From NCBI GenBank assembly GCA_001804805.1, contig MHBH01000053.1, positions 1 to 64,000 of the forward strand: a stretch of DNA of 64,000 nucleotides. The letters are read 5' to 3'. Below the pieces are notes generated by a model that did not search any database, was not told where the DNA came from, and saw only the letters and a program-made list of their open reading frames with translations. Origin of the DNA: Lentisphaerae bacterium GWF2_49_21 (GTDB taxonomy: Bacteria > Verrucomicrobiota > Lentisphaeria > Victivallales > GWF2-50-93). Every line of letters starts with the position of its first letter. Within the stretch, counting starts at the first letter, position 1. Position numbers and translations under genes: made by a program. This document shows, piece after piece, positions 2,937 to 62,514 of the stretch.

Positions 2937-4565
2937 TCAATGCGTCATGAAAAACGAGACCAGGTTCGCACCGAGCTTCAAGGCGTCGTCGGGCATGTAC
3001 ATGCAGCTCAGCGGATGCTTGTCGCCCTGCCAGCCTGCGGCGATATCCACGGGGCTGTAGATAATCTTGTATTCGCCGTTGATCTTCAATCCCTCGAGAT
3101 ATGCCGCCTTCACAATCTGAAATTTAGCCTTTGTCTCAGGTGAATATTCCACCACGTCGATCTTGTACGGCCCCTTCTGGAAAATCGGGCTGTCCATCGG
3201 GATCCTCTCAAATTTAGCATCCGGGTACATCGCGGCGATATTGCCCCTGAAAGCCGAGTCGAACTCTGAAAGCCCGAGAGAATTGCTGGCCAGCAGGTAT
3301 CCGCCATGCGACAGATATTCCTTCAGCGCATTCTTCTCGGAATCGGAAAGCCTGAATACAGTGATGCCGGAAAGGAAAAGGAACGGATATGCGTCGACCG
3401 GATCCTTGCCCAGTACGACAGCCTTGCTGATATAATTAACCTTGACGTTCGTGTTGCGGCTTACAAACCGCATGAGCCTGTTTCCTGCGCCCGGCTCGGT
3501 GTTCCATACGCCGTCCGTCCTGATCTGCGGAAAGACAACAGGATCGGAATCGTCCACAAGATCGTTCTGCCCGTAGATGTCTATCCTCGAATGGGATTTC
3601 CCGACCTGGAACCATCCCACCGCATAGGCCAGCAGATTGAGGCCCATGATATCTGCGGATCCCGGATCATAATAGTCGGCCTTCGCAATGAGCTCGGGAC
3701 TCGTCCTGTCCCAGCCTACTCCCATTCCGTACGGAGAGATCACTGCCGCAAGCCTCGAACCAATGTAGACTCCCTCCAGCACCGGCTCAACTTCGTTTTT
3801 TGTCTTTATATTAACCTTGACCGTATCCTTCAGCATGTGGAAGACGGGCTGGTCCAGAGGGAGACGCCGCGCCGGGGATTCCGGAATGATAGTTGCCAGC
3901 TCCTTGAGCGCCGACTTGTAGAAATAGGGAGAGCCCACGACGGAATCGAACCACAGCATGCCGCCTGCAAGCATGTATCTCCTCAGCTTTGCGCGCTCCT
4001 CGTCCGTGAAATTCAACGAACGTCCTCCTGAAAAGAACAGCACCGGTATCTGCGCCGGAGTCGAATCAAAACTTGACAGGTTGACTGTCTCGACCTTGTA
4101 TTCCATGCCGAGATGGTCGCGCGCCATCCCGAGGATGCGCTGGCAGTCCGCGGGAACCATGTTCCAGTCGAACACCCTTGAAACCTGTCCGTCCTCCCAT
4201 TTGTGATCGAGATATCCTCCCCAGACAACCTTGCCGATCAGAGTCGCCGGACTCGGCGGGCTTTTCTTCTCCGAACGCCTGAGCGGAGTCGCCGGAAGCG
4301 GAAGCGGAGGCAATGCCTCTCCGGCCTGCTGGCGATCCGCCTTCGCCTTCGGAGGCTTGCCGACCGGCTTCAGGAAATCATCCTCCTCGGCTGCAAACAA
4401 TACCGTTGAGAAAACAAATAGGATTGAAAAGACAATTGCAAAACTCAAAATTCCGGTCGGACAAGTCCGACCCTCCACGCCAGAAACTGGCGTAAAGATG
4501 GAGGGACGCGCTTGCCGCGTCCGAAGTTTTTGAATTATTTCTTCAATCAACAGGATCGGTCTCAT
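2937..4565 (-). CDS. DUF4159 double-domain exported protein
   Basis: A 542-residue protein. An unusual 40-residue polar leader is followed by a hydrophobic export segment (about residues 41-58, ending FAAEEDD), a proline-rich linker, and two copies of the DUF4159 fold. The first is at about 105-325 (with LFFSGGRSLNFTDEER and LRRYMLAGGMLWFDS), the second at about 330-540 (FLFLSGITVFRLSD, LKEYLSHGGYLLAS). DUF4159 is a GATase-like domain of unknown activity, commonly linked to MoxR/DUF58 loci. The start ATG overlaps the stop of the upstream gene in an ATGA, so translation is probably coupled. Part of the leader is encoded by a dispersed repeat (4436-4535), so it may be an insertion tolerated ahead of the signal segment. 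Confidence 0.8.
   Translation of the reverse strand: MRPILLIEEIIQKLRTRQARPSIFTPVSGVEGRTCPTGILSFAIVFSILFVFSTVLFAAEEDDFLKPVGKPPKAKADRQQAGEALPPLPLPATPLRRSEKKSPPSPATLIGKVVWGGYLDHKWEDGQVSRVFDWNMVPADCQRILGMARDHLGMEYKVETVNLSSFDSTPAQIPVLFFSGGRSLNFTDEERAKLRRYMLAGGMLWFDSVVGSPYFYKSALKELATIIPESPARRLPLDQPVFHMLKDTVKVNIKTKNEVEPVLEGVYIGSRLAAVISPYGMGVGWDRTSPELIAKADYYDPGSADIMGLNLLAYAVGWFQVGKSHSRIDIYGQNDLVDDSDPVVFPQIRTDGVWNTEPGAGNRLMRFVSRNTNVKVNYISKAVVLGKDPVDAYPFLFLSGITVFRLSDSEKNALKEYLSHGGYLLASNSLGLSEFDSAFRGNIAAMYPDAKFERIPMDSPIFQKGPYKIDVVEYSPETKAKFQIVKAAYLEGLKINGEYKIIYSPVDIAAGWQGDKHPLSCMYMPDDALKLGANLVSFFMTH
4436..4535. repeat. Multi-hairpin repeat inside the DUF4159 leader
   Basis: The segment holds GTCGGACAAGTCCGAC, CGCCAGAAACTGGCG and GGACGCGCTTGCCGCGTCC hairpins plus the pair CCCTCCA/TGGAGGG. 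It is flanked by AACTCAAAATT and AAGTTTTTGAATT. A related block lies between two convergent AraC genes at 22838-22919, sharing GGACGCG, GACGCGTCCCTCCA and TTTGAGTTTTGAAATT. Here it is translated in frame near the N-terminus of the DUF4159 protein. Confidence 0.6.
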
Positions 4566-6622
4566 TTTGCACCTTCACTTATTTTTTTATTTATCACTTC
4601 AAGGAGCTTTGAAGCCTCCAGTTCCTCGAGCGAGTTCGGATTCTGCTTCCTTATGGTCGAGATCTGCTGCTTCGCCTTCAGATATTCCTTCCTACCAGCA
4701 TAGACTCCGGCCAGCGCTATCCTTATTTTCGCATCGGTGCTGTCGTCCCTGTCAAGGAGAAGCGCTCCTTCAAGCACCGCTACGGACATGACATTTCTTC
4801 CAAGCTTCGAAAAGGCCCTGCCTTTAAGCAGGACAAGAGGCGCATAGAGCCTGATCGAAGGTTTCTCCCATTCAAGAGCGGAAATCACTTCCAACGCCTC
4901 TGCATTCTTGTTGGACGCAATGTACTGCTCGACCAGGAAAAGCTTCGCGTTCGTCGAATTCTCACGCTCCAGCCGCTCCTTCGCGTCCTTCGGAACCGGG
5001 TTTCCAGTCTTGATGGAGTTCAATATATAATACGCAGCATTGAAGCCTTCCTTACGCAGGACAGCGTCCGACTGCGCAACAATATATGCCCTCTTCTCGC
5101 GGTCCGACAGTGAAGCGTTCCTGATTCCATTCAGTATTTCAAGCCCTTTCTGCGGATCCCCCAGCGGCCCAACAAGCAGTTCCGCCTTCTTCAGGAGCGC
5201 CCTCGATTTCATGGGCTCCTGCGCCTTCTGCAGGAAAGCATCCCATGCATCTATGGCCGCCTTGTAGTTCTCGGTCTCAGCCATGCGAGCCACCACCAGC
5301 TTGTCGAGGAAGTCGAAAAGGCGTTCCGTGGCTGGCGACTTCTTCATGAGCGACGACTTCTGGTAGAATGTCTCCGCCTCCTTCTTCTGCTTGTAGAAGA
5401 TCATCGACGTAATGATCGCATTATATCCCTCGTCCTGTATTCCGCCGGAGGATTCCTGCTGGACGGCCTTCTTCATGATCTCATTGGTGAGGTTGTCGTC
5501 GTTCTCGCTCTGGCCGAACCTGTAGTTCACCTGGACGTCCTGCTTCTGCTTCATCTGGCGCCCGCCTGCAAGTTCAACTGTCATTGTGACATGATACATC
5601 CATCTTTTGAAATAAAGATGTGAAACCTTCGCCCCCTCCCCGGACGTGCCGTCGTCAAAATCCCATTTTATCTTCTGTACTTTCAGGTCCGCAGGAACTG
5701 ATGCCGTGAATTCGACCTCGTGCATGCAGTCGCTGTCGAAATAGATCATCTGCCTGTTGTCCCAGGAAAATTCCGGCACTGGCTTCCCGCCGCCATCCTC
5801 CAAGGGCCCGGCCGACGCCTTGTAGACATCGGTGAATGAATTTTTCGGGATCACTCCGTTCTTCTTTTCGCCTGGCAGGAGGATTCCGGCGACAGCACAG
5901 AGCCAGTCGCCATTGTTCGCATGGAGATATCTGAACTTGTGGATCCCCTCCGCAAGTACGACATCCCCAAAGACTTCGTTGTTGGCGCCCTTCCACGGAT
6001 CATGTCTGCCGGGCCATGACACCACAGGTTTGCCGTCAATCAGGATAAACGAGGCGTCTGTGGAAGCCGAATAAAACCTGTAGCTTCCGGCCTTCCCAAT
6101 TTTAATGTCGCCGTCGTATGAATGAATAGTGTTTTTGTTCTCTCCCAATAGATTGTTCCCGCAGAAAACCTTCTCCTCGAACAAAGCCCCCTCGAATGCC
6201 GACTTGGCCCAATGCTTCATGAAGGAATCAATGGAATCGACGCTGCCAAACGGCTCCTTGGATCTTTTCACGGTGTGGAGAAGTCCGGACGCGTTTGGCA
6301 TGCCCTCGGCATGGCCGACCTCGTCCTTCAGAAAGGCCAGCGAAAGCTCATCGGATCCGTTGATGTTGAAGAATACCCTGTAATATCCCCCTTCCGCACG
6401 GAGCAGGCTCGTCTTGATCCCCTCGCCGTTCCGGTTGCACAGGAGGTAGCCTTTGCATTCGACAGGAAGGAAAAATTCGAGCGTCACCGAGACATTCCCC
6501 TTCGCCTCGGCGGGTATTTTGACCTTCTTCCAGTACATCGCATTGATCTTATCGGTCGGATGACCATATAAAATGGCTGGAAGGAGTATCGCAAATAAAA
6601 TGGCCAGTGTTTTTCTTGTCAT
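4562..6622 (-). CDS. Exported PA14-like/PKD/TPR-like protein
   Basis: A 686-residue protein with a cleavable-looking signal peptide (MTRKTLAILFAILLPAILYG). A PA14-like beta domain lies around residues 170-255 (SYRFYSASTDASFILIDGK, HKFRYLHANNGDW). A PKD domain with WDFDDGTSGEGAKVSHLY sits near 315-370. The last 300 residues are helical and TPR-like (repeated EALEVISALEW, LLKGRAFSKLGR-type segments). It leads the minus-strand unit and ends four bases inside the DUF4159 gene, so the two products probably act together at the envelope. The exact function is unknown. The combination suggests a scaffold that binds carbohydrate or protein outside the cytoplasm. Confidence 0.7.
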   Translation of the reverse strand: MTRKTLAILFAILLPAILYGHPTDKINAMYWKKVKIPAEAKGNVSVTLEFFLPVECKGYLLCNRNGEGIKTSLLRAEGGYYRVFFNINGSDELSLAFLKDEVGHAEGMPNASGLLHTVKRSKEPFGSVDSIDSFMKHWAKSAFEGALFEEKVFCGNNLLGENKNTIHSYDGDIKIGKAGSYRFYSASTDASFILIDGKPVVSWPGRHDPWKGANNEVFGDVVLAEGIHKFRYLHANNGDWLCAVAGILLPGEKKNGVIPKNSFTDVYKASAGPLEDGGGKPVPEFSWDNRQMIYFDSDCMHEVEFTASVPADLKVQKIKWDFDDGTSGEGAKVSHLYFKRWMYHVTMTVELAGGRQMKQKQDVQVNYRFGQSENDDNLTNEIMKKAVQQESSGGIQDEGYNAIITSMIFYKQKKEAETFYQKSSLMKKSPATERLFDFLDKLVVARMAETENYKAAIDAWDAFLQKAQEPMKSRALLKKAELLVGPLGDPQKGLEILNGIRNASLSDREKRAYIVAQSDAVLRKEGFNAAYYILNSIKTGNPVPKDAKERLERENSTNAKLFLVEQYIASNKNAEALEVISALEWEKPSIRLYAPLVLLKGRAFSKLGRNVMSVAVLEGALLLDRDDSTDAKIRIALAGVYAGRKEYLKAKQQISTIRKQNPNSLEELEASKLLEVINKKISEGAK

Positions 6623-9502: not shown

Positions 9503-9743
9503 TTCTCGCACAAAGACACAGAGCCGCAAAGCAAATAAATGGAGCAAAAGTTTTAGGAAAAGAGTCTGAGAAAGAACCCATCTTCAAAAGGGTTTTTCTC
9601 AGTCCGAGCAGAAATGCGAAGGGAAAAATAAACTTGATAACTTTCTTCGTGGGCTTCTGTTTTCTTCGTGGTGAGAATATTTCCCGACGCCTTCTGGCCG
9701 GGATCTTCGACTTTGTGGCTCCTTGGCTTTGTGAGAGAAAAAT
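9503..9743. repeat. CACAAAG-family long inverted repeat
   Basis: Left arm TTCTCGCACAAAGACACAG near 9503 and right arm GGCTTTGTGAGAGAA near 9743 face each other across about 190 bases. The inner part contains a hairpin AACCC...GGGTT and runs of CTTCGTGG. Short versions of the same arms occur at 55432, 58211, 62545 and 63391. Confidence 0.5.
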
Positions 9744-9826
9744 GGATTTGGAATTTTAACCATCTCCATGCAGCCAACGTTGCATACGCGCTGTGGCAGA
9801 TGGATAGGCGTAATTGTATAAACTAA

Positions 9827-13262: not shown

Positions 13263-13277
13263 CAGTTGTCTTCTTAT

Positions 13278-13348
13278 GTTGGAGTTCACAGCTTTAGCGT
13301 GAGTCTTTTCGAGTTACTAAGATTCAGGCTAAAGCCTGTACTCCAAAC
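13278..13348. repeat. GTTGGAGT-family element
   Basis: Starts GTTGGAGTTCACAGC and ends CTGTACTCCAAAC, a complete inverted pair of 71 bases. It follows the stop of the small secreted protein gene by 16 bases. Confidence 0.7.
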
Positions 13349-22792: not shown

Positions 22793-22837
22793 CTTCTCTG
22801 CGAAGGCGGAAGTGTGTCTTAGGATCCAATTGTAAAA

Positions 22838-22919
22838 CATTGGACGCGGCAAGCCGAAGATCCCGGTCCGGCTTCCGGCATCGGGACGCGTCCCTCCATT
22901 TTTTGAGTTTTGAAATTGC
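22838..22919. repeat. GC-rich hairpin repeat between convergent AraC genes
   Basis: TTGGACGCGGCAAGC at the left pairs with GGGACGCGTCCC at the right, and inner GATCCCGG pairs with CATCGGGA. The flanking TTTGAGTTTTGAAATT is shared with the repeat inside the DUF4159 gene at 4436-4535. It could act as a bidirectional terminator. Confidence 0.55.
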
Positions 22920-22924
22920 CGCCA

Positions 22925-46838: not shown

Positions 46839-46961
46839 AAAAAAACTCCTTGTTAATCTATCACTCAACATGTAACAGAAATATTCAGAACACGTTATGT
46901 AATAATATATCTGTCAGGAGAAATTTCAAATCTGCCGAGCTGATTTCAAAACTACCAAAAC

Positions 46962-47084
46962 GGTTGTTGCGGCAATGTACCCTGTTGGAGTTCTCAACTT
47001 TAATGTGTCTTGGCATTTCCCGACACCCGTTGGGGCCGAGATCTTCGACAATAGTTTATGCACGCTAAAGCCGTGAACTCCAAC
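46962..47084. repeat. GTTGGAGT-family element with 5-prime extension
   Basis: Preceded by GGTTGTTGCGGCAATGTACC, then GTTGGAGTTCTCAAC, ending CCGTGAACTCCAAC. The same extension precedes the copy at 48893-49049, so it belongs to the element. Confidence 0.7.
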
Positions 47085-47302
47085 TTTAGAAATCAGTTCA
47101 AAAGAGGCAATTTTGAAATTGCCTCTGGCATACATATGGCAATCGCGATTTCATAATATGAATTTCAAAGGAGCGCGGGTTTTCCAACCCGCGAAAAATG
47201 GCGGACTGGTATAATATCATCCCAGAGAATTTTATTATCATTGTAGCACAAGTTATTCGCCGTTATGGACGATACTTTATCATAAAAGAGGAGGAATGCC
47301 AT

Positions 47303-61662: not shown

Positions 61663-62514
61663 ATGAAATCAAAAAGCAGATGCTTTATGCCAGATGCAGG
61701 ATACTGGACATTGGATTTTGATTGTACCCTCGAGAAATCAAGATTAAAAATTAAACATCCTGCATCTTGCATCCTGTATCGCCCCTTCACCTTGATTGAA
61801 CTGCTTGTAGTCATTGCGATCATCGCAATCCTCGCGGCGCTGCTGCTGCCGGCGCTTGCGAAATCAAAGGATTACGCAAAACTGATAATCTGCTTGAGCA
61901 CATTGAAACAGCTCCAGCTCGCAAACACCCTATATGCCTCAGAGAACAACGACTGGTATGCGCCGATATGGGAGTTCCGTCCGGACAACACGGGAGAACG
62001 TCTTTCCTGGGACCGACACGAAGCTTTCAGATCTTGTTTTGGCAACTCCACCGGACGCCAGAGCAGATGGGGGGAAGTGGGCAAGCCCTGGAACATGAAC
62101 TACTATGATCACTGGCCGGTGGACTATGCCTGCCCAAAATCGACAAAAGCTCTCGCCGACGTGAAGGAGAACAATGTCTGCCAGATGGATCTCTCATACG
62201 GCTACAACCGCACTGATCCAAGCCCCACTGGAACAGGAGGGGCATGGATAAGCTGGAGCGCCATGTATGCCGGATTCCGCCAGGCGGAAATAAAAAAACC
62301 TGAGAACAAGCTTTTCTTTGCCGACTGCGGATGGGACTTCAAACTTCAGGAGGATGCTTCAAACCTTTATGTCAGTGAAACACAGGGGGGCACGGCGGCC
62401 ATCGCCTACCGCCACAACAGGACGGCAGCCATCGCTTTCGGCGACGGACACGTGCAAACCATGGGCAGGACGGATGTAGTGTTCAATGCCGACCTGTGGA
62501 GGATGTGGAAATGA
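61663..62514 (+). CDS. Prepilin-like protein 1 of 3
   Basis: A 283-residue pseudopilin-like protein of the PVC-group family, with [24 protein letters not shown] beginning near residue 44 and a C-terminal [16 protein letters not shown] motif. The residue before the Phe is Pro, where a prepilin peptidase normally requires Gly. The leader is encoded by a dispersed inverted repeat (61679-61780). GGGG sits five bases before the ATG at 61663. A GTG two codons upstream is also possible. The mature part is about 93 percent identical to protein 2. Its stop overlaps the next start as ATGA, so translation is coupled. Confidence 0.85.
61679..61780. repeat. GATGCAGGAT inverted repeat in the leader of prepilin 1
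   Basis: Arms GATGCTTTATGCCAGATGC and GCATCTTGCATCCTGTATC pair over about 45 bases with mismatches, around a short loop near GTACCCTCGAG. It is read through in frame. Confidence 0.75.

Follow-up and report, generated by a model that had tools for sequence, protein, structure and literature searches.

Small palindromic repeats that invade genes and remain in frame are known mainly from Rickettsia. The Rickettsia palindromic elements (RPEs; Ogata et al., 2000, 2002) are outlined in PMC10969869 as in-frame inserts in many unrelated genes. In Coxiella burnetii, QMITE1 and QMITE2 are small MITEs that contain hairpins and REP-like sequence and sometimes lie in frame in ORFs; their direct repeats measure 2-3 or 7-11 nt, and their overlaps with genes of known function are reported mainly at 3' ends, with none affecting the 5' end of such a gene (PMC5896051). 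The enterobacterial RU elements are summarized as mobile repeats of 100-170 bp that are found at intergenic and intragenic positions and carry ORFs (PMC2759123). Here we describe a similar phenomenon in Lentisphaerota, in the leader of a DUF4159 protein. A limited literature search found no account of this element family in Lentisphaerota.

In-frame insert in the DUF4159 leader

The window analysed here is a stretch of 64,000 nt from Lentisphaerae bacterium GWF2_49_21 (GCA_001804805.1, contig MHBH01000053.1, positions 1 to 64,000 of the forward strand). Its ORF at 2937..4565 on the minus strand matches the PF13709 profile at 174.7 bits (cut-off 25.9, E = 2e-51) and encodes a DUF4159 protein of 542 aa, which reads MRPILLIEEIIQKLRTRQARPSIFTPVSGVEGRTCPTGILSFAIVFSILFVFSTVLFA and then continues into the conserved AEEDDFLKPVG. 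The start codon, preceded by a Shine-Dalgarno-like GAAGG motif, forms an ATGA overlap with the stop codon of the upstream gene. Overlap and motif are present in 4 of 4 close genomes, namely this genome, its congener Lentisphaerae bacterium GWF2_50_93 (G001), G003 from the same genus and G004 from the same family, and the ancestral start thus lies before the repeat.

Three hairpins, identified by sequence and fold, follow one another on the minus strand in the repeat DNA of the leader: the first, GGACGCGGCAAGCGCGTCC, at 4504..4522, the central one, ACGCCAGTTTCTGGCGT, at 4477..4493, and the third, GGTCGGACTTGTCCGACC, at 4455..4472. The fold reached z = -5.0 against shuffles. A 23-nt search core, made of the first hairpin plus CTCC, gave one match in the window at ≤3 mismatches vs. 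0.00 expected. Copies were then counted by pattern searches of genomes at ≤2 mismatches, which gave 13 in this genome, 43 in GWF2_50_93, and zero in G003, in G004 and with the reversed-pattern control. The preliminary description had derived the leader from a repeat and related it to an intergenic block at 22838-22919. That block spans 22823..22922 on the plus strand, shares its two terminal repeats and its first stem with the leader and is, by family alignment and lengths, a deletion derivative. The hairpins, the fold, the multi-copy core and the related block together show that the observation was right, and the 39 codons concerned are missing in G003.

Among the relatives searched, the DUF4159 protein was matched in eight other genomes. 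The leader insertion is common to this genome and GWF2_50_93, whose leaders are equally long with zero indels, though only ~70% (70-73%) identical outside the hairpin core. The orthologs of G003 and G004 have ordinary leaders of ~20 residues (MRKILVLMVLFAVSPVLLAA and MRAILFISVLFLATTALRAE) with clean flanks and no insert; the leader of this genome is longer than that of G003 by exactly 39 codons. From the empty orthologs, the family alignment and the lengths, we delimited the insert as an in-frame, MITE-like element of 113 bp at about 4429..4541 on the minus strand (residues 9-46). The element plus a 4-bp target-site duplication gives 117 nt, i.e., 39 codons, and so the frame was kept; the duplication has decayed at this site and is no longer readable, so that its size is deduced from length only. 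Since the insertion is found in this genome and G001 and is missing in G003 and more distant relatives, it is lineage-specific but not private. The clean flanks and the empty sites in G003 and G004 agree with what had been expected of an insertion, whereas its confinement to this genome does not hold, and the leader is not shared by all relatives either.

In the alignment with the empty orthologs, the original leader start MRPILLIE is now upstream of the insertion (4542..4565, minus). Downstream of it, the same alignment and the hydropathy place the remainder of the old signal-peptide hydrophobic core, SILFVFSTVLFA, at 4392..4428 (minus). The element's right terminal repeat encodes ILSFAIVF, which is the first part of the present hydrophobic segment; the repeat had been thought to precede that segment, and this applies to most of it but not to the right terminal repeat. 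The present core has a hydropathy of 2.82 over 12 residues, the predicted charge of the n-region is +3, and the segment ends in VLFA-A. Judged from its sequence, the leader looks as expected for a Sec signal peptide, with a predicted n-region (~38 residues) that would be unusually long.

The element family

Intact copies are mostly 112-122 bp long and are bounded by the 16-bp terminal inverted repeat (TIR) GAGGTAATTTCAAAAC and its reverse complement, or variants of these; the hairpins form the middle only. At the fetched loci, with all interiors included, an exact 4-5 bp target-site duplication flanks 30 of 43 TIR-bounded elements (4 bp, n = 17; 5 bp, n = 13), vs. a mean of 0.8 and a maximum of 5 of the 43 when the flanks were shuffled. 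Most copies are intergenic. The element is multi-copy and too short for a transposase gene, as is the case for MITEs. With its TIRs, target-site duplications and three hairpins, the family is MITE-like and non-autonomous. A TIR search in five fragmented draft genomes, with 20 loci read, detected short elements only and no autonomous transposon with the same TIRs.

The interiors vary, and copies in G002 carry a different first hairpin between the same family ends. Two MAGs, one of a Lentisphaera sp. (SulCav) and one named Victivallis vadensis MiH-14oct19-33, hold complete copies whose first hairpin is that of the DUF4159 element; DUF4159 orthologs were not found in these two core-carrying MAGs, in a search that had no positive control there. 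The idea that the element is designed to preserve the frame and to stay open was rejected. When intact copies with a readable duplication were sorted by net length modulo three, they fell 8/8/5, showing no frame bias, and open frames numbered 1.55 per element vs. 1.85 in shuffled sequence, showing no excess.

Several variants were recorded along the way. The third hairpin has the form GTCGGACTTGTCCGAC in copies within or at the start of genes (L040, L085, L092, L106 and window positions 4455-4472), and mostly the form GTCATGCTTGCCATGAC in intergenic copies; the GTCGGACTTGTCCGAC variant may represent an older subfamily that persists in translated copies. In GWF2_50_93, the locus L111 (G001:C75:77482-79302) consists of three 30-bp tandem units with one GGTCGCGGCAAGCGCGACCCTCC hairpin each and without terminal repeats, so the hairpins spread on their own too. 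At 46937-47125 of the window, TIR-like ends (GAGCTGATTTCA...TGAAATTGCCTC) stand 189 bp apart without a duplication. Between these ends lies an inverted repeat, TTGGAGTTCTCAACTTTAATGTG ... ACGCTAAAGCCGTGAACTCCAACTTTAG, with related repeats at 298-331 and 13268-13301; a second palindromic family may here be nested within the MITE-like one.

The window also contains other repeats. Three tandem prepilin-type genes lie at 61786, 62634 and 63482 on the plus strand, and the leaders of two of them hold a 31-nt repeat like CTCCGCGCCTCTGTGAGAGAAAAA. A relative of this repeat is present at 9719-9749; the repeat is unrelated to the MITE-like element. The prepilins had been named alongside the DUF4159 protein as a class in which repeat DNA precedes a membrane-targeting segment in frame, but the prepilin leaders of the window are without the MITE-like element, whose core has a single match there. 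An inverted repeat at 2832-2929, between the DUF4159 gene and a MoxR-type ATPase gene, has 35-nt arms that are 86% complementary and is built of AAGTTTCAAGTTTTAAGT-like units. A DUF58 gene is flanked by a low-complexity CAAGTTCCAAGCTCCAAA repeat, whose copies lie at 104-163 and 1441-1500 (85%).

Copies in other genes

Six-frame reading across the copies of GWF2_50_93, followed by an ortholog check, revealed five further in-frame insertions in that genome, two N-terminal and three inside glycosidase-like enzymes. A GH38 mannosidase-like protein (L097) has 28 extra residues, none of which are in this genome's ortholog. The ortholog-checked insert of L090, a protein that has no Pfam match and is called glucosidase-like on overall appearance only, is 42 aa long. 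A rhamnosidase (L085) carries an insert of 35 aa that its orthologs in this genome, in G003 and in G007 lack. The N-terminal cases are a signal-peptide protein (L091), with a leader of 61 residues vs. 26 and 21 in orthologs, and a GT2 glycosyltransferase (L106), with an N-terminal extension vs. MPAMPKIS in this genome. Counting the DUF4159 gene, N-terminal insertions make up 3 of 6 distinct cases in GWF2_50_93, and two of these are in signal peptides.

The preliminary description had suggested a general tolerance for repeat DNA just before membrane-targeting segments. Tolerance near the N-terminus is real, as the insertions at L091 and L106 demonstrate, but it is not peculiar to that position: at least three enzymes of GWF2_50_93 tolerate the element internally. 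The tally of cases hints at N-terminal tolerance and is only suggestive, because the cases are few and the search was aimed at open frames. One copy in the SulCav MAG (L197, about 5341-5452; 112 bp long, flanked by the 4-bp duplication AGTT) splits out of frame a gene that is PIN-domain-like from its visible sequence. Given the lack of frame bias and of an excess of open frames in the family, the in-frame coding copies are best read as spared by selection; they look like its survivors.

Proposed history and alternative readings

The insertion, the element family, the empty sites, the duplications and the frame are direct observations. To account for them we propose, with a probability of roughly 85%, that a MITE-like element inserted in the part of the DUF4159 gene that encodes the signal peptide before this genome and GWF2_50_93 split, that the frame was kept and that the leader was rebuilt. 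A non-autonomous element of ~113 bp would have transposed into this region in the common ancestor of the two and cut the old hydrophobic core after MRPILLI. Residues ILSFAIVF, encoded in this frame by the right end of the element, would have joined the remaining half SILFVFSTVLFA as a new core, and the outcome would be a signal peptide with an n-region of ~38 residues. We infer that translation still begins at the original ATG and that export has continued; the precursor would then begin MRPILL, and the leader peptide would include the stretch RTRQARPSIFTPV... expected if translation runs through the repeat. In-frame copies inside other genes of GWF2_50_93 would be insertions that selection allowed, and a frame-shifting copy would break its gene. 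Mobilisation was presumably in trans, by a transposase that was probably of the DDE type.

The hairpin core of the leader is conserved beyond the level of the gene. Between this genome and GWF2_50_93, 66 of the 68 nt of the core are identical; for the rest of the DUF4159 gene, dS is ~0.78 and third positions are 66% identical. Third positions in the core are identical at 21 of 22, a level that was reached by 0 of 460 equal-length windows elsewhere in the gene. One of the two changes falls in a loop, and the other converts C-G to U-G and keeps the pairing in the predicted fold. Such conservation could reflect selection on structure, gene conversion among copies or, in a single gene, chance.

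That the core was recruited to function as an RNA or DNA structure in the coding region, e.g., for translation control in the operon, is a tentative idea that we do not favour, and it would be compatible with the proposed insertion as a later step. Conservation of third positions beyond the silent-site level of the gene points toward it, as does the fact that the only change in a stem preserves pairing. On the other hand, the pattern comes from a single gene and two sequences, no Rfam family matched, and gene conversion could yield the same result, although the central and third hairpins of the DUF4159 copy differ from the common family version. A more specific and somewhat more doubtful form is that the stems are held by selection, for example as a means of slowing or gating translation just before the signal sequence emerges, in which case the repeat would act as leader peptide and RNA element. 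As a control for core conservation, we looked for an intergenic copy that the two species share in position; only L042 and L084 share an intergenic region, and their elements sit at unequal distances from the matching flank.

Translation might instead begin inside or after the repeat, at the GTG in GGCGTGGAGGG or at a later TTG, as the preliminary description had allowed for; the repeat would then be untranslated and the protein would have a short, normal leader. This is unlikely, slightly more so than selection on the stems. By inspection, MEGRTCPTGILSFAIV... would make a good signal peptide, and high conservation of the hairpin core, beyond what the rest of the gene requires, could be taken in the same sense. 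However, the in-frame GTG within the repeat has no Shine-Dalgarno-like motif and sits in a predicted stem, and the TTG after the repeat is present in this genome only, being missing in GWF2_50_93. The original ATG, the ATGA overlap and GAAGG are retained in all four close orthologs, and both species keep the frame upstream of the repeat with zero stops and zero indels.

We regard as improbable that the element is a REPIN, i.e., a pair of REPs moved by a Y1 RAYT transposase, instead of a TIR-type MITE. Two GGAG-headed hairpins do face each other, and PF01797 (Y1 transposase) has 20 matches in this genome, in several groups. Against this stand the exact 4-5 bp target-site duplications and the 16-bp terminal inverted repeats, neither of which is known to be made by Y1 single-strand transposases. 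The PF01797 genes fetched from this genome had no core copy within 1.5 kb; in GWF2_50_93 one core copy is 0.8 kb from a PF01797 gene. A RAYT/Y1 link was left unsupported, given the duplications and the absence of a core near the fetched genes of this genome. Separate insertions at one hot spot in this genome and GWF2_50_93, conceivable for a family that is multi-copy in both, are very improbable, as site, orientation and length agree and both copies share the central-hairpin variant CGCCAG/CTGGCG, which is uncommon elsewhere in the family.

Comparison with known systems

Because the family has identifiable ends, duplications and empty orthologs, its insertions can be reconstructed exactly. The system lets one ask which protein positions tolerate inserts, such as leaders and glycosidase interiors, and the proposed history of the DUF4159 gene shows how a signal peptide may be rebuilt once it is cut in two. 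It offers a clean example of selfish DNA turned into protein sequence, and a warning that repeats can be the source of N-terminal extensions in genomes of this kind.

Among the known systems, the enterobacterial RU elements resemble the element as far as their published outline goes, in size and positions. The QMITEs of Coxiella differ in their lengths and in the sizes of their direct repeats. REPINs likewise have hairpin pairs that face each other with a GGAG motif, but the element described here has terminal repeats and duplications, and no linked RAYT was seen in this genome. As outlined for RPEs, short palindromic repeats lie in frame in unrelated coding genes and add tens of residues, and such behaviour, in-frame, in unrelated genes and with empty orthologs, is seen in six genes of GWF2_50_93 including the DUF4159 gene. 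The present family differs from RPEs in belonging to another phylum, in its clear TIRs and 4-5 bp duplications, in being mostly intergenic and inserted in both orientations, and in having two copies in signal peptides. By analogy, the Rickettsia palindromic elements are the closest precedent, matched by behaviour.
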